Positions 1 to 26,394 of a DNA stretch of 43,696 nt are shown here, one piece after another. The notes under the pieces are model-generated. The model was not told where the DNA came from. It ran no database searches and was given only the letters and a program-made list of their open reading frames with translations. The stretch's first letter is position 1; every line of letters begins with the position of its first letter. The DNA is from an uncultured Candidatus Saccharibacteria bacterium. GTDB lineage: Bacteria; Patescibacteriota; Saccharimonadia; Saccharimonadales; Saccharimonadaceae. Made by a program: the position numbers and the translations under genes. The stretch spans positions 1 to 43,696 of the forward strand of contig CANBER010000006.1 of the NCBI GenBank assembly GCA_947367795.1, written 5' to 3'.

Positions 1-69
1 TATGTCTACCCATCGCGTGGTCCGAACAATCGTTGGTTTGGTTTCCCCATCCGCTGCCTAGCCTATTAG
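1..69 (+). CDS. 3' end of a FISUMP-type surface protein gene (partial)
   Basis: Reading frame 1 is open from the window edge to a TAG at 67-69 and encodes a tail ending RWFGFPIRCLAY. The same ending (G[FS]PIRCLA or close) closes the full FISUMP protein at 24694-26394 and the three minus-strand cassettes just downstream. This is therefore the last 22 codons of a secreted or cell-surface protein of that family. The rest of the gene is outside the window. The stop is followed by TTTATATATA, also found after the stop of cassette 3 in inverted orientation, giving a roughly 42-bp inverted repeat (40-80 and 671-712) with about four mismatches. Function by family: C-terminal FISUMP tails are variable, surface-exposed and of unknown ligand. 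Confidence 0.75.
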   Translation, partial: YVYPSRGPNNRWFGFPIRCLAY

Positions 70-118
70 TTTATATATAGTAATATGTCAACCACTAGTA
101 CAATCAAAATAATCACAC

Positions 119-334
119 TTATGCTTGACAGCGGATGGGGTAAGCGCGCCAATGATCGCCCGGGCCGTCCGACGGGTTGACGCCAGACGCATCGAAGCGG
201 AGACGGTACGCAGTAGCAGAAGTAACAGAGGTAAATGCCCGTGAAGCCGAAGACCAACTGCGGCCATCGAGGCCGAAGAACCTCAGAGAACCGCCGTACG
301 GATAGACATGCCCACTACGGACGAAGGATAGAGG
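119..334 (-). other. Start-less FISUMP C-terminal cassette 1
   Basis: On the minus strand an open frame runs from the shared boundary sequence (coding SFVRSGH) to a TAA at 119-121. It encodes about 70 residues with the FISUMP tail framework: VRSG, YGGSLRFFG, RSWSSAS, AYRLRFDASGVNPSDGPG, and a final HWRAYPIRCQA. There is no start codon, promoter or upstream domain, so alone it cannot make the protein. It looks like an interchangeable or relic 3' segment. It points head-on at the plus-strand gene ending at 69. The sequence between framework positions is very different from cassettes 2 and 3. Confidence 0.7.
311..334 (-). repeat. Cassette boundary repeat, copy 1
   Basis: The plus-strand sequence CCCACTACGGACGAAGGATA plus GAGG is identical, over 24 bp, to 635-658. 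On the minus strand it encodes LSFVRSG at the upstream edge of the cassette, so it is both coding and a candidate crossover or homology point. Confidence 0.75.
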
Positions 335-349
335 GGGGTAAGGAATATA

Positions 350-658
350 TTAATCATATCCATCCAACATAATTACCAGATCCTTTGGACTTTCTACGGA
401 TTTAATCTGAGTTCGCCAGCGTATGGGGAGACCGTACCATCGATGACTCGGGCAGCGGATGGGGAAACCGAGCCACCGATCGTGCGGTCCAGCTGATGTG
501 GTAAGTCCGCCAGCATATAAATCCAAGAAATAAGCCTGAGCGGAGGCTACGACATTGAATATTTTACTAGAGCATGACCATTGGTTGCTAGCTATACCAA
601 TGTACCATGCTGCACCATAATTGAGACGCATATGCCCACTACGGACGAAGGATAGAGG
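350..658 (-). other. Start-less FISUMP C-terminal cassette 2 (chimeric tail)
   Basis: A minus-strand frame begins at the boundary sequence (SFVRSGH) and encodes MRLNYGAAWYIGIASNQWS, a serine-rich stretch, AYFLDLYAGG, and DRWLGFPIRC. The normal stop is missing here. The frame continues through a second, imperfect copy of the same ending (HRWYGLPIRW) and then an unrelated 23-residue tail before stopping at 350-352. The duplicated ending suggests an earlier recombination or duplication inside the array. No start codon in context and no promoter are visible, so it is a silent segment or a relic. Confidence 0.68.
635..658 (-). repeat. Cassette boundary repeat, copy 2
   Basis: Same 24 bp as 311-334, at the upstream edge of cassette 2 and directly after the 3' flank of cassette 3. 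Confidence 0.75.
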
Positions 659-678
659 AGGTGAGGATTATATATAAA

Positions 679-892
679 CTAACAGGCTAGGCAACGGATG
701 GGGAAACTAATCCAACGACCCAACGAAAATGATGATTGCGTATTGACTGCATGAAAGTATAATACATGCGTATTGGCAGCACTAATAATAGTGGCAGTAA
801 AATCTAAAGAAGACAGAGATCGACTATAACCAGCATTGCCGCCATATCTCAGTGAACCATAGTACACAGCTAAGTTGCCACTACGGACGAAA
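679..892 (-). other. Start-less FISUMP C-terminal cassette 3
   Basis: A minus-strand frame from the boundary core (FVRSGN) to TAG at 679-681 encodes about 70 residues: VYYGSLRYGGNAGYSRSLS, then a TIISAANTHVLYFHAVN stretch, then GRWISFPIRCLAC. This is the most canonical cassette. Its ending matches the plus-strand gene ending at 69 almost base for base, in inverted orientation. Only the 13-bp core of the boundary is kept at its upstream edge; beyond it the sequence diverges into the flank of tRNA-Pro. No start or promoter is visible. Confidence 0.72.
878..890 (-). repeat. Cassette boundary repeat, copy 3 (core only)
   Basis: Only the 13-bp core CCACTACGGACGA is shared with the other two copies. 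The array ends here, about 20 bp from the 3' end of tRNA-Pro. Confidence 0.65.
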
Positions 893-910: not shown

Positions 911-986
911 TGGTCAGGGTGATCGGATTTGAACCGACGACCTCGCAGTCCCGAACCGCGCGCGCTACCAGCTGCGCCACACCCTG
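911..986 (-). tRNA. tRNA-Pro (anticodon CGG)
   Basis: The minus strand folds into a complete cloverleaf. The acceptor CAGGGTG pairs with CACCCTG, the anticodon loop is TTCGGGA (CGG), the T-loop is GTTCAAATC, the discriminator is A, and CCA is encoded. A second proline tRNA (UGG) lies 1.1 kb away on the other strand. Confidence 0.93.
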
Positions 987-4370: not shown

Positions 4371-7300
4371 TCAAGCGAGCATATCAAGCTCGTTCCTACA
4401 TTTCAGCTCAGCCTGCCTAATAACCGTATCAACTGCTTGCTGGCTTTTCTTTGGAGGATAGTCATATTTTTTGAGCAATTTTCTTATTTCTATGCGCATC
4501 TTCGCCTGCGTGCTAAGTTTTCTATCCCAATCAATAGTCATATTAGCATTAAGCACCACTAGTAAATCTTTCGCTATCTGGACCAAAACTTCATCTTTCA
4601 TCAGTTCTCTGACTTCAGGATCGTTTCCTAACGCGTCGAAAAAGGCTTTTTCGTCATCTGTCAGGTCATATTTATTGCCCCTAGCCGTTTCTGTATTTAT
4701 ATCTTGCTGCAGTTCAATAAGTTGCTCCAAAACCCGCTCTATATCAGCTACTGACGTGCGATCATTGTAAAGCTTAGTGATTTTTTCAAATCGCTCAGAA
4801 AACTTCTCCGCCAACACCACATTCGAAGTGGCCACCTGCTTAATACTGCTTTTGAGGACCTTTTTAAGTATTTCAGCGGCGATATTTTTCTGCTCCATAT
4901 TTGCGAGCTTTTGAAGAATCTGATCGTTAAGCAAGCTTAGATTCTTGCCGTGTTTAATCTCGCCAACCTGAATTAGCTCATCATCTATTATGGCCTGCTG
5001 TAGCATTTCTGCAACATCTTTGTTAATTTGGCCGATATCAAGCTTACCTTCGGGCTGTGTTAATTTATTAATAAAAGATTTAACGGCGATAATGTACAGG
5101 ACTTCCGCCTTATCGTTATCGTTTAGCAATCCAGAAGTAATTGAGTATAGATTCTTTATGTCTCTCGAGCACTTTTGGAAGCGTTTCGTGCGCTCCTCAG
5201 TTTCTAGTATAAAATTTGCACCCTCATTGATAAGCTGATATTTTTCTTTATTATCTGCAGTTTGAAAGCCCGAATAATCAAAGCCGTGGAAGATATTGTG
5301 CATTACTTCCAGCTTATCTCTTAGTACATTTAAGGTTTCTTCGTTATCGACGATTTTACCTTGGTCGCGCTGAGTATAGGTTTTAAGAGCATCCAACAGC
5401 CATTGTTTAAGACCGATATAGTCGACAATTAATCCGCCAGTCTTATCTTTGTAGACGCGATTTACCCGCGCAATAGCCTGCATTAAGTTATGTGCTTTCA
5501 TTGGTTTGTCAACATACATCGTGCCTAGACAGGGCACATCAAAACCAGTTAGCCACATGTCCCGAACAATCGCTATTGTAAACTTAGAATCCGGATCTTT
5601 GAATTCCTTTTCTCGCTCAGTTTTTTGACTGCTGCTCCCTATCGCAAGCGCCATATCCTCAGGATCGTTGTTACTAGGAGTCATGATTATTTTTACATTT
5701 TCGCTTAGCTCCGGTCGAAGTTCTAGGATCTTTTGGTATAGGGCGTAGCCGGCGTTTCTAGAATAAGCAACAATCATAGCTTTATTTGCCGTCATACTTT
5801 TACGAGTATCGTAATGCTTTAGTATATCACGGGCAATCATTTCTAGACGAGACGGATCTTCAATAATCTGGGAAATATTTGTCATCATAGTTTTGGAGCG
5901 CCGAATTTGTTCATCATCCGCCAAGTCCTCGCTTTCCAGAAGTTCATAGTATTCGTCGATCTGCTTAAGGATTTGCGCATTTAAGCCAACCTTCGCCATG
6001 CGCCCCTCATAGTAGAGTGGCACAGTGGCACCATCTTCAATAGATTGAGTCATATCGTAGACATCGATAATTTCACCAAAAACACTGGTCGTAGAATGGT
6101 CCTTCGCTTCTACTGGTGTTCCCGTAAAGCCAATGTAGGTTGCATTCGGAAAAGCATCGTGAAGGTATTTTGCCGTACCGTATTTTCTCTCTGCAGTCAA
6201 AGTGTCTTGATCGATTTTGATCTTGCCGCCGATTCCATAATGGCTACGGTGTGCTTCATCTGCAATGACCAAGATGTCTTTACGATCCGACAGAAAACCG
6301 GTTTCTTCCTCGAACTTTTGTAGCGTGGTGAAGATGATGCCTCCGGCCTGCTTATCCTCAAGCTTTTCAACGAGATCTTTACGACTTTCGATTCTAACTG
6401 GTTTCTGCCTCAGAAAATCCTGACATTTTGCAAAGGTTTCGAACAACTGATTATCAAGGTCATTACGGTCGGTGACTACGATTACGGTTGGGTTGTTCAG
6501 CTTCGTAATCATATTTCCTGTATAGAACACCATCGAAAAGCTCTTGCCGGAGCCTTGGGTATGCCAAATGATGCCAGCGCGGCCATCCGTAGTTGCAAGA
6601 GTCTGGTCGATAGCTTTTTTGACGCCATAATATTGATGGTAGGCGGGGAGAATCTTTGCATCGTCTTGGAACAGAATGAAGTTTTGAATGAGGTCTAGCA
6701 GTGTTTTCTTGTTTAGCATTCCACGAATTAGCGGTTCGTGAGTATTATGGTTAATGACCTGTTCTGCGATTCCAGTTTTCTTCCACTCATTAAAACGCTG
6801 ATAATTGCAAGTAATGGTTCCAGCTTTCGCCGTAGCTCCATCCGAAATAACTAGAAATTGATTATAGTAAAAGAGACTAGGAATATGAGTGCTCATATAG
6901 TTCTTTAGCTGTCGATAGGCATCTCCAAGGCTAACTTCCTCGCGCACCATACTTTTAAGCTCCATAACTACAAGCGGAAGACCATTAATAAAGATGATCA
7001 GGTCAGGGCGCTTCTCGCTATGTTCAATGATAGTAAATTGATTAACTGCAAGAAAATCGTTATTATCTGGATTATTAAGATCAACAAGATATACACTAGT
7101 ATTAACGGTACCTTTTTCTGAATGATATTCTGAAACCGGGACTCCGCCATGTAGGAAACGGGTAAATTCCTTATTATTGCGGACTACATTGTTCTGGCTT
7201 AGATTTTTGACCTGTCGGACTGCCTCTTGGATAGTTGAATCTTGCAAAGACGGGTTAATCCGTTGCAAGGCAGAGAAGAGTCTATCCTCAAGAATTACAT

Positions 7301-7403
7301 CGTGATAGTCGCGGCTGATTTCTTCTCCGGCAATATAGTCATATCCCTGTTCGCGGAGCAGGTCTATAGTCGCCAGCTCGAGGCTATTCTCATCAAAATC
7401 CAT
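4371..7403 (-). CDS. hsdR: Type I restriction enzyme, R (endonuclease/translocase) subunit
   Basis: 1010 aa, the normal HsdR length. It cuts unmethylated DNA after ATP-driven translocation in complex with HsdM and HsdS. Visible domains: PD-(D/E)xK nuclease with D134 and E148-x-K150 (VVMELK); SF2 helicase motif I HTQGSGKS near 285, motif II DEAHRSH, motif III TGTPVE; motif VI region with AIARVNR; then a long helical C-terminus that contacts the methylase. The nearest upstream gene is the intact hsdS, 45 bp away, with an AAAAGAG ribosome site, so hsdR is probably read with the recombinase-hsdS transcript. No frameshift is seen. Confidence 0.95.
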   Translation of the reverse strand: MDFDENSLELATIDLLREQGYDYIAGEEISRDYHDVILEDRLFSALQRINPSLQDSTIQEAVRQVKNLSQNNVVRNNKEFTRFLHGGVPVSEYHSEKGTVNTSVYLVDLNNPDNNDFLAVNQFTIIEHSEKRPDLIIFINGLPLVVMELKSMVREEVSLGDAYRQLKNYMSTHIPSLFYYNQFLVISDGATAKAGTITCNYQRFNEWKKTGIAEQVINHNTHEPLIRGMLNKKTLLDLIQNFILFQDDAKILPAYHQYYGVKKAIDQTLATTDGRAGIIWHTQGSGKSFSMVFYTGNMITKLNNPTVIVVTDRNDLDNQLFETFAKCQDFLRQKPVRIESRKDLVEKLEDKQAGGIIFTTLQKFEEETGFLSDRKDILVIADEAHRSHYGIGGKIKIDQDTLTAERKYGTAKYLHDAFPNATYIGFTGTPVEAKDHSTTSVFGEIIDVYDMTQSIEDGATVPLYYEGRMAKVGLNAQILKQIDEYYELLESEDLADDEQIRRSKTMMTNISQIIEDPSRLEMIARDILKHYDTRKSMTANKAMIVAYSRNAGYALYQKILELRPELSENVKIIMTPSNNDPEDMALAIGSSSQKTEREKEFKDPDSKFTIAIVRDMWLTGFDVPCLGTMYVDKPMKAHNLMQAIARVNRVYKDKTGGLIVDYIGLKQWLLDALKTYTQRDQGKIVDNEETLNVLRDKLEVMHNIFHGFDYSGFQTADNKEKYQLINEGANFILETEERTKRFQKCSRDIKNLYSITSGLLNDNDKAEVLYIIAVKSFINKLTQPEGKLDIGQINKDVAEMLQQAIIDDELIQVGEIKHGKNLSLLNDQILQKLANMEQKNIAAEILKKVLKSSIKQVATSNVVLAEKFSERFEKITKLYNDRTSVADIERVLEQLIELQQDINTETARGNKYDLTDDEKAFFDALGNDPEVRELMKDEVLVQIAKDLLVVLNANMTIDWDRKLSTQAKMRIEIRKLLKKYDYPPKKSQQAVDTVIRQAELKCRNELDMLA

Positions 7404-7425
7404 ATTTTACTCTTTTCTATTGGTA

Positions 7426-8030
7426 GCATAAATAACTATTTATCTGACTAGATTTCTACTTTACTTAAGTCTATTTTACCATTCATTAGCTCTGGGAGCA
7501 AGGTATCGCGGAGGTGAGCGAGATAAATATTTTCATAATTATTCGATTCAATCTTTTCTAGGCATTTTTGCAGTTGATAGATTGTCTCGCGGTCATCTAT
7601 GAAAGGTATTTCAAAATCTTCAATATTACCCTTCGTAATAAACTTAATCACCGAACCTCGAAAATTAGAAGTGATATTTTTTAGATTGAGCGAAATTGCC
7701 CAGTATAGATATCCCAACAGAGATGCGTCTTTCGGTATCAGTACATAAGTTCTCTGATATGCATCAAATTTCCCTCGATAAAACTTTACATTAAAGTCCC
7801 CATTGCCGGCTAGTAATATGGCTGATTCATTGAAGGAATATTCATCAATTGCACTAATTTGTTTTGAGCATGTAAAGAACGGATACTTGCCATTTTCGAC
7901 CGCAGCATTAGCATCCTTTTTGCCAGTAACGACCGGAAAGAAGAAACCTAATTTCTGCATCTTTGCCTGGCTGCTACTTTCAAATTTTTCCTTATAAAGT
8001 GTTTGCCCGATTTTATACAAATTATCATTT
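7426..8030 (-). repeat. 605-bp direct repeat, copy A (hsdS C-terminal half)
   Basis: Apparently identical to 10045-10649 (offset exactly 2619 bp). It covers the second target-recognition domain of hsdS, its stop codon and 22 bp of 3' flank. The translated 190 residues are identical in the two copies. Identity ends at one side in AAATTATCATTT and at the other in GCATAAATAA. Confidence 0.93.
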
Positions 8031-8560
8031 GTGCGATTATTGTATTGGATTTTGTCATCTATGGCCAGAAGTACTTTCGCGATTTGTTCTTGAGCATGGA
8101 GTGGCATAAGTTCAAAGGTGAAACCGCCCATTGAGGTTGCACTGATGTTAGCTTGTGCACTCTCGCTATCTATATGAGTAATAATATATTGATAGTATGT
8201 GCGACTAGAAAGTAAATAAAACAAGTAGTCTTTATTTAAAGCATCAATACTCGGCTCAAACTTTGCAACACGCTGGTTTATGTATGTTGTGTTCCCGTCA
8301 TGTAGCTCGGTTATTCTGCCAATTTTGCCAATAGTTGCGCCAGTCATAGCGAATACGAAATCACCAGAAGACACGGAGAATTTTTCTAATTTTGTATGAT
8401 CATGTCTGGATATATCAACAGTATCACAATTTTCAGTATCTACACCGCTAGAGATAATATCCTTTATCTTTATCGCTCTACTATAGCCGTGGTTAAAATC
8501 ACTACTTTTGAATGCGAAACCAGGAACAATTTTACATACTTCTGATAATCTTACTCTCAT
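7448..8560 (-). CDS. hsdS: Type I restriction-modification specificity subunit (intact copy)
   Basis: 370 aa with two target-recognition domains. TRD-A is residues ~1-165 (SEVCKIVPGFAFKSSDF to LMPLHAQEQIAKVLLAIDDKI). The conserved spacer is NNRTNDNLYKIGQTLYKEKF (~174-193). TRD-X is ~195-365, ending in HLRDTLLPELMNGKIDLSKVEI. It determines the bipartite DNA target of the HsdMS methylase and the HsdRMS nuclease. Its ATG overlaps the stop of the recombinase gene (ATGA), so translation is coupled. The C-terminal half is the 605-bp repeat also present downstream of hsdM. Being distant from hsdM and attached to a recombinase is unusual and suggests it arrived with, or is moved by, that recombinase. 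Confidence 0.92.
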   Translation of the reverse strand: MRVRLSEVCKIVPGFAFKSSDFNHGYSRAIKIKDIISSGVDTENCDTVDISRHDHTKLEKFSVSSGDFVFAMTGATIGKIGRITELHDGNTTYINQRVAKFEPSIDALNKDYLFYLLSSRTYYQYIITHIDSESAQANISATSMGGFTFELMPLHAQEQIAKVLLAIDDKIQYNNRTNDNLYKIGQTLYKEKFESSSQAKMQKLGFFFPVVTGKKDANAAVENGKYPFFTCSKQISAIDEYSFNESAILLAGNGDFNVKFYRGKFDAYQRTYVLIPKDASLLGYLYWAISLNLKNITSNFRGSVIKFITKGNIEDFEIPFIDDRETIYQLQKCLEKIESNNYENIYLAHLRDTLLPELMNGKIDLSKVEI

Positions 8561-9555
8561 CCTATATACTTTCTATGCGACATCTTCACATTATTTTGGC
8601 TGACCATTGCATAATGCATGGTGGTTTCAATCTTGACATGGCCGAGAAGCTTTTGGACTTGTTCTATTGGCATATCTTTGTCGATCGCCATAGTGGCTAG
8701 AGTTCTTCTAAACTTGTGAGGATGTACATTTGGAATATTTGATATTTTTCCGATATTCCTTACTATTAATTCTACACCAGAAATTGACAAATTTCCATAG
8801 GGTGCTCGAGTGGAAACAAACAGCCCATCTGCTTTGTCATGCCTGGATTTCAGATATTGCTCAAGATGAATTTTTGCCTTTGCATCAAAATATACCTCTC
8901 TCTGGCGATTGCCTTTACCAAGCACTATGCAAGATCTATTTTCAAAATCAATATCACTCCGTTTAAGCTTGACGATTTCACCCACGCGAACTCCAGTAGA
9001 AATTAAAAATTCGATTAGCGCAAGATCGCGGATATTTTTACAATGATCTTTCAGCATTACAAGGTTTTCATCACTAAAGGTTTCTTTGACTAATACTCTC
9101 GATTTAACCTTATGAATCCTGCGCACAGGACTTTTTATAATATAATCTTCATCCTCAAGCCACGAAAAGAAGCTAGAAAAAATTCGCCGTACATTATCAA
9201 TGGTGGTTCCAGAGCAATTCGTTTCATCTTTATACTCTGCTAAATAGGACCTGATGTGATCTGTAGAGATTTCTCTTACTGGAATTCTTACTCTAGATAG
9301 AAGCCTGGTTATTATGGCTTGATAATAACCAATTGTTCGGTCGGAGCAACCCTCAACTCGCTTAGAGGAAAGAAAGATTTCCATCAAGTTGGTATTATTA
9401 TCCATGATGACGGCGGTATCTTCATGGTTCCGTGTCACTGTTATTTGCACTTCACTGAGATGATCGATCAGCGTTTCTTTTAGCTTATCTAACTGATAGT
9501 AATTTAATACACTCTTCATGTCACCCACGATTCGAAGAGCTAGTTCGTTTTGCAT
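8557..9555 (-). CDS. Tyrosine site-specific recombinase (XerC/D-like)
   Basis: 332 aa. The N-terminal core-binding domain covers ~50-145. The catalytic domain has R190 (ISTGVRVGE), K214 (LGKGNRQRE), H280-K-F-R283 (HPHKFRR), H306 (LLGH) and the nucleophile Y315 (TTMHYAMV). All residues needed for strand exchange are present, so it should be active. Start: ATG with AAGGAG (9564-9569) and a TATAAT at 9585-9590. It lies between two hsdS copies sharing a 605-bp repeat, and recombinases of this class are known to shuffle hsdS genes. Host chromosome dimer resolution (a true XerC/D) is less likely because it is embedded in the AT-rich hsd island and overlaps hsdS. Confidence 0.9.
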   Translation of the reverse strand: MQNELALRIVGDMKSVLNYYQLDKLKETLIDHLSEVQITVTRNHEDTAVIMDNNTNLMEIFLSSKRVEGCSDRTIGYYQAIITRLLSRVRIPVREISTDHIRSYLAEYKDETNCSGTTIDNVRRIFSSFFSWLEDEDYIIKSPVRRIHKVKSRVLVKETFSDENLVMLKDHCKNIRDLALIEFLISTGVRVGEIVKLKRSDIDFENRSCIVLGKGNRQREVYFDAKAKIHLEQYLKSRHDKADGLFVSTRAPYGNLSISGVELIVRNIGKISNIPNVHPHKFRRTLATMAIDKDMPIEQVQKLLGHVKIETTMHYAMVSQNNVKMSHRKYIG

Positions 9556-9594
9556 AATTATAACTCCTTGAATTTTGGGTATATATTATAACAT

Positions 9595-9640
9595 AAAAAG
9601 AAGCCCTGCGGTAGGTACCTTCGGCGCCGTGCAGAACTTC
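9595..9640 (-). terminator. Terminator after the CdiA-like nuclease gene
   Basis: On the minus strand GAAGTTCTGC pairs with GCAGGGCTTC (two G-U pairs) around a 21-nt loop, followed by TTTTT. It separates the hsdM-side transcript from the recombinase-hsdS-hsdR transcript, which has its own TATAAT at 9585-9590. Confidence 0.75.
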
Positions 9641-9655
9641 GATATCTTTATATTA

Positions 9656-10048
9656 TCAAATTAAAGCGGAAATGTCAATAATCTGGCCGCGTTTTGTAAT
9701 CATAACTAGCTTCTTTATCTGCTTTCTAGATCTAGTTTGTGCAATAAGAAACTTGCGAACACTGTCATCCCTGGAGTTCTTCATGCGTGAAGTATCGATG
9801 ATAATATTTGGTGACTGTTTGAGTGCCTTCTTTAACAGGTGTTCTAGGGAATTAGTATTGGAGGTTTTTGGCGATTTTATCTCAAATTCTATGCCGTCAA
9901 GGAAAATATCGGCTGTATGTAGATTTGATTCTTCGATAAACTCAATATTATGTCCAGCTAGTGTTAAGATCTCCGCAACTCGCAACTCATGAGGCCAAAT
10001 TCTGCGGCCAGAAGCAATGAAGGTTCCATTCTTACGATTGTGTTGCAT
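9656..10048 (-). CDS. Stand-alone CdiA C-terminal tRNase-like (PD-(D/E)xK) protein
   Basis: 130 aa. Residues ~20-100 match the pattern of the CdiA-CT tRNA nuclease family as I remember it: helix AEILTLAGHNIEFIEE, then TADIFLDGIEFEIKSPKT (D and E-x-K of a PD-(D/E)xK site), then LKKALKQSPNIIIDTSR. In contact-dependent inhibition this domain cleaves tRNAs and is paired with an immunity protein. Here it has no delivery domain, no signal peptide and no obvious immunity gene. Its start codon sits on the last bases of the 605-bp repeat, 16 bp after the hsdS fragment's stop. It may be a toxin stabilising the hsd locus, a defence nuclease, or a housekeeping nuclease captured in the rearrangement. Family call is from memory of motifs only. 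Confidence 0.7.
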   Translation of the reverse strand: MQHNRKNGTFIASGRRIWPHELRVAEILTLAGHNIEFIEESNLHTADIFLDGIEFEIKSPKTSNTNSLEHLLKKALKQSPNIIIDTSRMKNSRDDSVRKFLIAQTRSRKQIKKLVMITKRGQIIDISALI

Positions 10049-10649
10049 AAATAACTATTTATCTGACTAGATTTCTACTTTACTTAAGTCTATTTTACCA
10101 TTCATTAGCTCTGGGAGCAAGGTATCGCGGAGGTGAGCGAGATAAATATTTTCATAATTATTCGATTCAATCTTTTCTAGGCATTTTTGCAGTTGATAGA
10201 TTGTCTCGCGGTCATCTATGAAAGGTATTTCAAAATCTTCAATATTACCCTTCGTAATAAACTTAATCACCGAACCTCGAAAATTAGAAGTGATATTTTT
10301 TAGATTGAGCGAAATTGCCCAGTATAGATATCCCAACAGAGATGCGTCTTTCGGTATCAGTACATAAGTTCTCTGATATGCATCAAATTTCCCTCGATAA
10401 AACTTTACATTAAAGTCCCCATTGCCGGCTAGTAATATGGCTGATTCATTGAAGGAATATTCATCAATTGCACTAATTTGTTTTGAGCATGTAAAGAACG
10501 GATACTTGCCATTTTCGACCGCAGCATTAGCATCCTTTTTGCCAGTAACGACCGGAAAGAAGAAACCTAATTTCTGCATCTTTGCCTGGCTGCTACTTTC
10601 AAATTTTTCCTTATAAAGTGTTTGCCCGATTTTATACAAATTATCATTT
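10045..10649 (-). repeat. 605-bp direct repeat, copy B (hsdS C-terminal half)
   Basis: Second copy of 7426-8030, same orientation, 2619 bp away. Recombination between the copies would excise a circle carrying the CdiA-like gene, the recombinase and TRD-A fused to TRD-X, and would leave hsdM-TRD-B-TRD-X-hsdR. Confidence 0.93.
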
Positions 10650-11259
10650 ATCTGATGTTAGCTGCGGAATATATAAGATGTAGTGTAAATTATCATTTAT
10701 CTGATGTTAGCTGCGGAATATATAAGATGTAGTGTAAATTATCATTTGTGCGATTATTCTGACGAATCTTTGAATCTAAAGGGGCGAGAATCTTAACGAT
10801 TTTTCTCTGATCTATAATCGATGGAAAATGCCAGTTCTCTTCCATCAGCGCCTCGGTTTGCACTCTTTGTCGCCCAGAAGTTCCAGTCATTAGTGAGATC
10901 GCTTTTCCCCTAAAAGCGCTAGAAGTGGCGATGTAGTATACGAATTCTGGAATGGTTTTTGATTCTATTGCGCGCATAACTATATATTCAGTTGATCCAA
11001 AACCAACCTCGCTATTCTTTAGATTATCCACAAACACCGTTTTACCATTCTCCAGACAGGGAGTTATCCGTGCTAGCAGGGTATCCCCATTTCTAAATTT
11101 CATTCCGGTATTATAAGTCGAGTATGGTGCTACATTAATGTACTTACAGAATGGCTTAATGCTAGCCATATCAATCTCTGGCGCAACCTGACCCTTTTTA
11201 ATGGTTTCTTTCGGATTAAATATAATATAATCCGAAAGTTTGCCTTCACTATAGCTCAT
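10067..11259 (-). pseudogene. hsdS: Interrupted hsdS (TRD-B + 49-bp repeats + TRD-X)
   Basis: Directly downstream of hsdM, overlapping its end (start ATG at 11259, GGAG ten bases before; an earlier in-frame ATG is at 11274). The N-terminal half encodes a different recognition domain (MSYSEGKLSDYIIFNPKET ... APLDSKIRQNNRTNDNL). After NRTNDNL the frame enters two 49-bp tandem units and stops (LTSDK-stop). Beyond the repeats the frame resumes as YKIGQTLYKEKF and is identical to TRD-X of the intact hsdS. Removal of both units would restore a normal hsdS with a TRD-B/TRD-X specificity. So this is either an off-state of a switchable gene or a pseudogene; I cannot tell which. Confidence 0.85.
10638..10747 (-). 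repeat. 49-bp tandem repeat (2 units + 12-bp core) in hsdS
   Basis: Units 10638-10686 and 10687-10735 are identical, followed by a third copy of the 12-bp core AAATTATCATTT (10736-10747). The same core ends the 605-bp repeat at 8019-8030. The core codes NDNL of the conserved hsdS spacer. Because 49 is not a multiple of 3 and each unit carries a TGA in the entry frame, any copy number above zero stops translation. Confidence 0.93.
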
Positions 11260-12745
11260 ACCCGATCGCTCCAAGATTTTTCTTAATTTCCTCTTCTAGC
11301 CGATGAGATTCTTCAAAATTCTGCTTCAACTCTTCCGTGAGAGTTTTCATCTTTTCTTCAAACGGGATCCCATCATCTTCCTGCTCGGCGATGCCAACAT
11401 AGCGACCAGGAGTTAAGATGTAGTCGTTAGCTTTGATTTCGTCTAGGTTTGCTTTTTTGCAATATCCGGGTACATCCTCGTAATTCTCGTCATTTTCGTA
11501 AGCATGATATGTACCAGAGATTTTTGCAATATCTTCGCTTGTCAGCTCACGTAACTTCCTAGTGATCATTGTGCCCAACTCAGTCGCATTGATAAATAGA
11601 GTATGACCATTTTGTTTCTTATTACGGTTAATAATCCAGATTGCACATGGCACGGTTACGGTATAGAAGAGATTGGATGGCATCGATAGAATACAATCCA
11701 CTAGATCTGCCTCAATCAGTTTTTTGCGAATCTCTGCCTCTTGACCACCAGCCGATAGTGAGCCATTAGCAAAGATAATCGCCGCTTTACCTGAAACTGA
11801 AAGCTTAGAAACCATATGCTCAATCCAGCCATAGTTTGCATTACCTTTTGGAGGTATGCCATATTTCCAGCGAGGATCGTCGACTAACTTTTCCTGACCC
11901 CAGTCGCTAATATTGAAAGGCGGGTTTGCTAAGATAAAGTCAGCCTTGAGATCTTTGTGCAGATCTTCATGAAAAGTGTCAGCGGCAAACTTACCGAGAT
12001 TGCCATCAATAGAGCGAATTGCGAGGTTCATTTTGGCAAGCTTCCAAGTAGTAGGGTTAGCTTCCTGGCCATAAATTGAGATATCGCGAGCATTACCTTG
12101 ATGTTGCTGGATAAACTTAATGGATTGCACAAACATACCACCGGATCCACAGCAGGGGTCGTAAACACGGCCCTTATACGGCTCTATGATATTTACCATA
12201 GTCTGTACAAGGCAAGCTGGAGTATAAAATTCTCCGCCTTTTTGACCATCCTTTTCAGCGAATTGCCCGAGGAAATATTCGTAAATACGCCCCAGGGTAT
12301 CTCTTTCAGCAGCTTCTTTGTCACCGATCTTTATATCTGTAAACAAGTCTACGATCTCACCGATTCTGGCATTGCGCATGTCTGGACTATTGTAAATCTT
12401 GAATAGCACACCTTTGAGCGTAGGGTTTTCTTTTTCTACGAGATCCATTGCTTTATCAAGAATCTCGCCAATATTGTAATCTTTAGAATGCATAGAAATA
12501 TACGACCAGCGAGCTTCTTCGGGTACAAAGAAGATATTCTCCGCCGTATATGAGTCACGCTCATCTTCTAAACCATAGCCCTCAGCTTTCACCTCCTCGT
12601 ATCTTTCCTCAAATGCATCCGAAATGTATTTGAGAAAGATTAGACCAAGTACGACATATTTATAATCTGTCACTGCCACATTACCGCGCATTTTGTCGGC
12701 TGCTGCCCATAAAGTCTTCTCTAAATCTTTAATATTGTTAGTCAC
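11249..12745 (-). CDS. hsdM: Type I restriction-modification methyltransferase subunit
   Basis: 498 aa, typical HsdM. It transfers methyl from S-adenosylmethionine to adenine N6 at the site chosen by HsdS. Visible: N-terminal helical HsdM domain (LEKTLWAAADKMRG), motif I VYDPCCGSGGMF (SAM binding), catalytic motif IV ANPPFN, and the GRYVGIAE segment near the end. It starts with GTG (12745-12743) preceded by AGGATAA and, further up, a TATAAT on the minus strand. The stop overlaps the start of the interrupted hsdS, the usual hsdMS order. It could work with the intact hsdS product in trans. Confidence 0.95.
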   Translation of the reverse strand: MTNNIKDLEKTLWAAADKMRGNVAVTDYKYVVLGLIFLKYISDAFEERYEEVKAEGYGLEDERDSYTAENIFFVPEEARWSYISMHSKDYNIGEILDKAMDLVEKENPTLKGVLFKIYNSPDMRNARIGEIVDLFTDIKIGDKEAAERDTLGRIYEYFLGQFAEKDGQKGGEFYTPACLVQTMVNIIEPYKGRVYDPCCGSGGMFVQSIKFIQQHQGNARDISIYGQEANPTTWKLAKMNLAIRSIDGNLGKFAADTFHEDLHKDLKADFILANPPFNISDWGQEKLVDDPRWKYGIPPKGNANYGWIEHMVSKLSVSGKAAIIFANGSLSAGGQEAEIRKKLIEADLVDCILSMPSNLFYTVTVPCAIWIINRNKKQNGHTLFINATELGTMITRKLRELTSEDIAKISGTYHAYENDENYEDVPGYCKKANLDEIKANDYILTPGRYVGIAEQEDDGIPFEEKMKTLTEELKQNFEESHRLEEEIKKNLGAIGYEL

Positions 12746-24541: not shown

Positions 24542-24693
24542 CCAAACATGACCTTATAGAAGTTTGGTGTAGATTATCTATTCGTATAACAATCCGCGAT
24601 ACCCAAGGTGGCCAATAATAAATAAGTAATCAAAAAGCATGAGGGTGGCCGTGTCAGTTTCCTTTTTGATTGCTCAAGAATAGGAGAGAAGGT
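24542..24693 (+). promoter_or_regulatory. 5' leader of the FISUMP gene
   Basis: The leader contains CCAAAC/GTTTGG (24542-24567) and a 10-bp stem AATCAAAAAG/CTTTTTGATT (24628-24637 with 24662-24671) that ends 9 nt before the ribosome site TAGGAGAG. No clear promoter is visible; TATAAC at 24585 has a poor -35. The gene may therefore be reached by read-through of the upstream terminator. Confidence 0.5.
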
Positions 24694-26394
24694 ATGAGGA
24701 TAGGGAATAGTAAGTTTAAGCCGGGCGCCGTCGGGATTGGCGCGAGCGTGGGGCTGGGAGTACTAGGATTAGCACTGCTATGCCCATTAGTCCCAGATGG
24801 AGCTTCGGCAGAGGAGTTTACAACTCAAGCTACCCAGGAGTTCTCGGTCTGGGCACATCCGGTGATTGCGATTAGCTTAGAGCGGAATGTAGACCTCGAT
24901 ATCATCCCGACCAGTGAGAGTAATCTAAACACGGTTAGTAGCGAGCTTAAGATCACGACGAACAACAGTTCTGGCTATGGTGTACTCATGGGTATGCAGG
25001 GGGATAATAATGACTTGATCAGCAGTGACGCAAATCAGTCAGCGAAGATCTCGGCGATCACCAGTCCAAACAACTTCACGAGCAATACTTGGGGATATAA
25101 TATCAACAAAGGGACGATGGCGGGAGATAGCTTCTCGGCCGTACCAGTGACCGCCACGAAGCTTCCTGAAGCCAGTACCACGACTGGCGCGGAGAATGCG
25201 ACCGATACTTATACCTTAACCTTTGGCACACAGATCGATACTACTTTGCCAGCCGGATCATATAGTAATGCTGTAGTAATCTCTGCCGTAGCTAACCCGA
25301 TCGAGATCTCCAACCTCACACAGCTAACTTATATGCAAGACATGAAACCAAGCATTTGTGAGAATACTAGGGAAAACGCTACTAAACGCCTAATTGACAC
25401 TCGTGATGGCAAAACCTACTGGGTAGCAAAACTTGCTGACGGTAACTGTTGGATGACCCAAAACCTAGCCTTTGACTTGGTGGCAGGGAAGACATTGACA
25501 CCGGGGGATACCGACATTAGCTCGGACTGGATTATACCGACCACTACTGAAACCAATATCCCGGATAAAAGTGGATTTATTAATGACACTTCGAATGCTA
25601 GTTCCTCATTTTTTAGTTATCGCTCTTGGAATCTAGGAGATTACGTGCTAGCGACGCCGCTCAAATATACTGAGTGCAGTAATTTAATGCATGGTGAAAG
25701 TTTTGCTCAGTGTGATGATTATCAGGACGTCTCCGGCTGGACAGCTACCTTTGAGGCGCAGACTGGCACATGGAAGGGTGCGCCAGCTGGCAATGGCTAT
25801 TCTGCCGCTGCCGACGGACTCATATCGGCTAATCTTGATACCTTATCTTATGACAGCCATTACCTCATCGGTAATTATTATCAATACAATACCGCCACCG
25901 CCGGAGGCGCGCCTATTAGCGTCAACACACAACAGGAAATTTCTACATCTATTTGCCCGGCCGGCTGGAGGCTTCCAAGCGCAGGGAATATGATAATGGG
26001 TCTTGAGGGTTTTGATGTTACTGTTTACAATGCTTTTGTTGACCAAGATGATAGTTTCTATAATCTAGCTAAGGAATATGGATATTCCAATAGTAAAGGG
26101 TATAAAATCAGAGCCGATAGTGGTGGTTATGATCTATATACGACAGCCATCAAAGGCAACTCAGCAAACAATTATCAGAACAATCTTATGGCGCCACCGA
26201 CATATTTTACTGGAAGTGGAATTGTTGATCTAAACAAAGAAGAAGTAAATATCAGCTATTCAACAGCGTATTTATGGTCGTCAAATGTTTGGAACGCCGG
26301 AGCGGCCAATAGCCTCAGTTTTAGCACTGTTCTTCGACCATCAGATATTGTTCACCGCTTTCTTGGCTCATCTATCCGTTGTCTCGCCCGCTAA
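24694..26394 (+). CDS. FISUMP-domain surface protein
   Basis: 566 aa from ATG 24694 (AGGAGAGAAGGT just before; the longer frame lacks a site). Residues ~12-43 form a signal or anchor (GAVGIGASVGLGVLGLALL ... GASAEE). Residues ~45-220 are a Thr/Ser/Asn-rich beta domain. From ~235 comes the FISUMP unit: DTRDGKTYWVAKLADGNCWM, then TQNLAFDL, and later ICPAGWRLPS. The end, from about residue 500 (PPTYFTGSG ... YLWSSNVWN ... FLGSSIRCLAR), is the same segment that forms the start-less cassettes at 119-892. Such proteins are abundant in Saccharibacteria; ligand unknown, probably surface adhesion. It is AT-balanced unlike its GC-richer neighbours. Confidence 0.85.
   Translation: MRIGNSKFKPGAVGIGASVGLGVLGLALLCPLVPDGASAEEFTTQATQEFSVWAHPVIAISLERNVDLDIIPTSESNLNTVSSELKITTNNSSGYGVLMGMQGDNNDLISSDANQSAKISAITSPNNFTSNTWGYNINKGTMAGDSFSAVPVTATKLPEASTTTGAENATDTYTLTFGTQIDTTLPAGSYSNAVVISAVANPIEISNLTQLTYMQDMKPSICENTRENATKRLIDTRDGKTYWVAKLADGNCWMTQNLAFDLVAGKTLTPGDTDISSDWIIPTTTETNIPDKSGFINDTSNASSSFFSYRSWNLGDYVLATPLKYTECSNLMHGESFAQCDDYQDVSGWTATFEAQTGTWKGAPAGNGYSAAADGLISANLDTLSYDSHYLIGNYYQYNTATAGGAPISVNTQQEISTSICPAGWRLPSAGNMIMGLEGFDVTVYNAFVDQDDSFYNLAKEYGYSNSKGYKIRADSGGYDLYTTAIKGNSANNYQNNLMAPPTYFTGSGIVDLNKEEVNISYSTAYLWSSNVWNAGAANSLSFSTVLRPSDIVHRFLGSSIRCLAR

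Follow-up and report, generated by a model that had tools for sequence, protein, structure and literature searches.

The window, the whole 43,696-nucleotide stretch of DNA analysed here, opens with a plus-strand tail that reads YVYPSRGPNNRWFGFPIRCLAY* at bases 1–69 and is followed by three minus-strand open frames (Table 1). The preliminary description of this DNA had recognized a plus-strand FISUMP tail with its stop codon and three start-less frames, and these features were indeed present: the frames open at TTCGTCCGTAGTGG (325, 649, and 891, read leftward) and extend to (H/R)WxxxPIRC, no in-frame start codon was found in cassettes 1–3, and the open codons upstream numbered 8, 6, and 1. The common beginning and end ascribed to the three frames were confirmed in part. 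SFVRSG is found in cassettes 1 and 2, whereas cassette 3 reads IFVRSG; likewise, all three frames reach (H/R)WxxxPIRC, but cassette 1 ends in HWRAYPIRC instead of the RW.xFPIRC described. The cassette-2 frame continues for about 30 codons beyond PIRC. The piece at 1–69 may be part either of the expressed gene or of another cassette. The inverted repeat at 45–140 consists of the 3' ends of two convergent variable repeats (VRs, see below) and could form a hairpin.

Table 1. Features of the window, and pairs of identical cassettes in the related genome G043.
Feature	Location	Strand	Remarks
3' part of VR (21–22 codons + stop)	1..69	+	cut by contig start; TR-like; stop at 67–69
Tail-to-tail inverted repeat	45..140		CCCCATCCGC at 45, reverse complement GCGGATGGGG at 131
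Silent VR cassette 1	122..325	-	start-less; fairly fresh: 18/165 non-A and 22/39 A positions differ from TR
5' boundary motif of cassette 1, TCGTCCGTAGTGG	312..324	-	71 exact genome copies
Silent VR cassette 2	446..649	-	start-less; old type: 63/165 non-A differences
5' boundary motif of cassette 2	636..648	-
Silent VR cassette 3	685..891	-	start-less; old type: 54/161 non-A differences (gapped alignment)
5' boundary motif of cassette 3	878..890	-	about 20 bp past 3' end of tRNA-Pro gene
tRNA-Pro gene	911..986	-	beside cassette 3
Type I restriction locus	4371..12745
HsdR	4371..7403
Specificity subunit	7448..8560
Tyrosine recombinase	8557..9555
Full-length FISUMP gene, paralogue of target	24670..26394	+	boundary motif absent
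Identical G043 pair	C13:9795 and C4:55361		226 bp; 68 positions unlike TR; both >9 kb from contig end
Identical G043 pair	C9:34071 and C1:123115
Identical G043 pair	C3:78542 and C15:252
Identical G043 pair	C4:28877 and C4:70422
Identical G043 pair	C6:59638 and C9:2645

The 13-mer CCACTACGGACGA at the border of the cassettes occurs exactly three times in the window (312, 636, and 878) and 71 times in the whole genome to which the window belongs (G000; 38 contigs, 860,540 bp). The reversed control pattern gave no copy in the whole genome, and chance is therefore excluded. One of the 71 copies, at C5:46151, has no VR behind it and was left out of the cassette set. The proposal of silent C-terminal cassettes, with a short border of exact sequence where the constant part meets the variable part, was borne out, the cassettes being start-less and having an exact 13-mer edge. 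It had also been stated that a FISUMP gene within the window, placed at 24694, carries the same segment as its last codons. This gene proved to have only a distant homologue of the segment (YFTGSG...SIRCLAR*), and it was rejected as a recipient of cassettes because it lacks the boundary sequence. The window also contains a type I restriction locus (Table 1), and a second HsdS–recombinase pair is located at the end of contig C7; the locus probably represents phase-variable hsdS switching of a known kind.

A search of G000 with the consensus-like copy at C9:35272-35475 returned 82 VR matches, of which two, on C37 and C27, fall within full-length FISUMP paralogues. ORFs cover 77–81% of the sequence (77% in G000), yet an ORF of at least 150 aa contains only 2 of the 71 motif sites of G000 and 1 of the 83 of the relative G043, and the sole such site in G043 is the target gene described below. 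Many cassettes lie 10–100 bp behind the end of a gene. Start-less VR copies between genes number about 75–90 across the genome, and the 13-mer marks the 5' edge of about 80 such cassettes. Neighbouring cassettes in G000 are about 13 convergent to 1 divergent (our own count), and those in G043 are 16 divergent to 1 convergent. The G043 pairs stand head-to-head with fixed spacers of 14–20, 84, or about 107 bp, some of which contain the palindrome CCCGTATAG.CTATACGGG, and the G000 pairs stand tail-to-tail. Most contig ends of G000 fall in cassettes, and the library may explain the poor assembly of such genomes.

The copy used in this search lies 340 bp downstream of a reverse transcriptase (RT) gene (C9:33781-34929) with YVDD and IGNLTSQ motifs. 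The RT product matched PF00078 above the cut-off and the NCBIfam group II and retron RT models far under their cut-offs; the RT class rests on PF00078 and on the two motifs, which were read by eye. From its position and its AAC/AAT-rich sequence, we identify C9:35272-35475 as the template repeat (TR) of a diversity-generating retroelement (DGR). The TR of G043 is C11:25702-25905, and a motif search directly behind the RT detected no TR in G024, G040, or L243. A conserved gene upstream of the RT gene, and overlapping it, encodes a protein of 331–358 aa with 67–69% identity across species, for which Pfam and NCBIfam contained no family. Its 339-aa product in G000 (L047:1770-2786, on C9), which overlaps the RT start and is mostly helical in a poor model, is probably the DGR accessory protein. 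Structure prediction with AlphaFold gave pLDDT values of 41.6 for the target protein and 55.1 for the accessory protein, and neither model was good enough for use. An Rfam search of the DGR stretch yielded no known RNA. The RT–TR intergenic region (L047:3930-4275; behind the RT in L246) contains the blocks GTGGATACT.TGTCCATGG and AAAGATCGTGAAGTTACCCTC, common to G000 and G043, which are perhaps a structured RNA leader.

In the fresh, TR-like cassettes of two species, the differences between TR and VR were concentrated at TR adenines. The pooled AAY adenines were changed in 61% (G000) and 48% (G043) of cases, compared with 7% and 5%, respectively, for the pooled non-A sites, and changes at AAY codons of the 30 freshest cassettes amounted to 42–95% for the first A and 20–57% for the second A. 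On this pattern, the cassettes are identified as VRs of the DGR. The preliminary description had explained the variation by inversion or gene conversion and had missed the DGR as the writer of variation.

The fresh cassettes might be accounted for by an ordinary DGR with dead-end targets, in which duplicated noncoding VRs are hit again via their recognition ends and never feed back into the expressed gene. TR-like cassettes with A-specific changes agree with this explanation, as do the 16 of 20 multi-cassette clusters that pair one fresh cassette with one or more old ones (shuffle p = 0.024) and the report that a reconstituted DGR edited many chromosomal sites (PMC12875486). Other properties of the cassettes, of which about 42 are TR-like and about 34 are old (22–44% non-A differences), argue against dead-end targets. 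None of the 43 in-register cassettes contained an internal stop, although 35% random change would leave only about 25% of sequences without one, and the framework dN/dS of the old cassettes was 0.32, indicating that the old cassettes are not decaying but keep frame and framework. The end codons (GTC CGT AGT; CCC, CGC) are nearly unchanged and the interior is stop-free and full of synonymous change, so that selection has acted on the interior at the protein level and the ends are conserved at the DNA level. Framework adenines in the TAC context were changed in only 4–6%, against 31–46% for the second A of AAC. This suggests that even fresh silent cassettes have passed through a selected protein, although the low TAC value could also be an RT context effect (BPP-1 bRT is context-dependent; PMC12875486). 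Further, freshness was independent of local coding-strand GC skew (r = 0.002, p = 0.98), which likewise does not favour dead-end targets. This replication-direction test was set aside: with the GC-skew proxy, no orientation effect of the kind described for BPP-1 in E. coli could be seen.

In all, 99 genomes of the genus were scored for VR matches; the window genome and the relatives named here (G013, G024, G030, G040, G043, and G056) are draft metagenome-assembled genomes. Among the 99 genomes, G013, G024, G040, and G043 had at least 58 matches each, and the start-less cassettes of each of these four number 70 or more. The full counts were 80 in G013 and 74 in G040, most of them in short open frames, and G043 has the 83 motif sites mentioned above. 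Start-less intergenic cassettes thus occur in at least five species, including that of the window. The RT was present in 19 of the 21 genomes with at least 13 matches, versus 38 of the 78 others (our own count). G030 had 86 candidate VR matches, 36 of them significant, and no DGR RT match; its RT is either lost or not assembled.

It had been predicted that an expressed gene would contain the boundary sequence about 65 codons upstream of the stop, and the relatives G043 and G024 have it there. The FISUMP gene on C20 of G043 extends for 572 aa to the contig end, reads SYNIAGAPLHFVRSGYVNRVYGSARNLGINGYNWSTTA, and leaves the contig inside a fresh VR. The FISUMP gene on C27 of G024 is complete (593 aa) and ends in ...PLYFVRSGYIHLSSANRL...GFPVRCLVY*, with a VR of the old type. 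Both carry the VR at the C-terminus and match the FISUMP family weakly. The G000 gene on C19 and the G040 gene on C13 leave their contigs before the VR, so that the four cases comprise two with the target VR at a contig end (G024 and G043), two with the target gene running off the contig, and none complete with both flanks.

The target VR of G024 and a silent intergenic cassette, C19:7622-7842, share 212 bp without a difference, the next best match being 89% over 79 bp. The identity starts at the first base of TTCGTCCG, with a left extension of 0 bp, and ends in the shared tail. In G043, five pairs of cassettes are identical over 183–234 bp at unrelated loci whose flanks differ (Table 1). At the C6 end of G043, a terminator-like hairpin is followed by 287 bp identical to the part of the target gene that leads up to and includes the motif, and this promoterless copy is followed by an old VR identical to the silent cassette C9:2645. 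Similarly, the C15 end of G000 has a hairpin and then a segment of the target gene. G000 also contains blocks common to otherwise different cassettes, such as the 42 bp with 14 non-TR positions in C5:43812 and C32:3700. Exchange between silent cassettes and the expressed gene is therefore evident from sequence identity, and the exchange with an expressed FISUMP gene put forward in the preliminary description is supported by the G024 tail, in a draft assembly. Retrohoming from the TR can account neither for an expressed old-type VR that equals a silent one over 212 bp nor for 226 bp shared by two cassettes that depart from the TR at 68 positions. We consider dead-end targets an unlikely explanation.

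The preliminary description had further likened the array to a shufflon; in this proposal, a dedicated tyrosine recombinase would invert segments at the 13-mer. The short exact border and the common inverted neighbours in G000 and G043 are in line with this proposal, and a Xer-type gene, single in each genome, is no more than about 0.5 kb away from a VR cassette in G043 (C4:64126), G040 (C2:110067), G024 (C14:6307), and G013 (C10:30212). The comparison of recombinases, which covered those of the tyrosine type, showed exactly one in each of G040 and G013, with their 74 and 80 matches, and also in G056, which is without a silent library, and the other two tyrosine recombinases of the window genome adjoin type I restriction–modification specificity genes. 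Although inverted neighbours exist, no inverted alternative arrangements were seen in the assemblies. The exchanged pieces are copies at unrelated loci without inverted segments, and the pair orientation is opposite in G000 and G043. The inversion-driven shufflon is not supported, and we regard it as very improbable.

In the remaining explanation, the 3' end of the target gene would have given rise to a MITE-like mobile repeat, and the sharing would reflect transposition only. The identity of duplicated cassettes stops at the cassette edges, the terminator hairpins at the C15 end of G000 and the C6 end of G043 are followed by partial gene copies whose 5' ends differ, and many cassettes lie close behind a gene end, all of which would suit such a repeat. 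Mobile repeats decay, however, whereas the cassettes keep open frames at the low dN/dS given above; no transposase or target-site duplication was identified, and the blocks shared inside otherwise different cassettes are left unexplained. Transposition only is, in our judgement, the least probable of the readings considered, while MITE-like insertion could be a route of cassette spread.

Taken together, the explanation that we consider probably correct is that variants written by a DGR are exchanged between an expressed surface gene and a silent library spread over the genome. The DGR (helical accessory gene, RT, and TR, on C9) would make cDNA in which random bases stand for the adenines of the template, and mutagenic retrohoming would bring this cDNA into the VR at the C-terminus of a secreted FISUMP protein. 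Whole cassettes or blocks would then be copied among silent sites, and between silent sites and the target gene, with the exchanged stretch bounded on the 5' side by the motif TTCGTCCGTAG(T/C)GG and on the 3' side within the conserved tail. RecA-type conversion, cDNA-mediated copying, and Xer are candidate routes of copying. RecA-type conversion fits the copies and mosaics, but recombination of this type would usually need more than the roughly 14 bp available at the 5' edge; some cassettes may be new insertions instead of conversions. The direction of copying and the enzyme of exchange are our inferences, and the use would presumably be variation of the surface binding domain of an episymbiont. 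DGRs have been described as forgetful, each round overwriting the last variant. Here, old variants could be stored and later re-expressed. In a fuller form of this scheme, to which we give an even chance, the RT creates variants, those that have been tested are stored start-less across the genome and later copied back, and the library forms an inheritable memory of earlier binding specificities.

The system resembles known DGRs (BPP-1 type and the CPR/Patescibacteria clade) in its RT, adjoining intergenic TR, C-terminal VR in a FISUMP protein, and A-hypermutation at AAY, but differs in having about 75–90 intergenic VRs without gene bodies that share sequence with the target VR. In DGR surveys, the VR is placed within a target gene that is coding (PMC8144416), and the T. 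denticola DGR has up to seven target genes (PMC4891356). Within the same genus, G056 has a multi-target DGR with a homologous RT (52% identity) and VR domain, its listed VRs being mostly in full-length FISUMP genes of about 530–580 aa. With Borrelia vls and Neisseria pilE/pilS, the system has in common one expressed surface gene, promoterless, start-less silent variable parts, mosaics, and a retained frame; in contrast to them, it has dozens of intergenic sites instead of one array, and an RT supplies new variation. The R64 shufflon (pilV/Rci) also has C-terminal cassettes behind a short conserved border, whereas here no dedicated recombinase was found, no inversion was seen, and the pieces are copies, not flips. 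In the open-access literature, we found no paper joining a DGR to a silent library.

If this explanation is true, new variants are made and old ones are kept in genome-reduced bacteria, and the combination of a DGR with a silent library would join two separately known ways of surface-protein variation. It would also suggest a way, open to testing, in which episymbiotic Saccharibacteria could keep pace with changing hosts.
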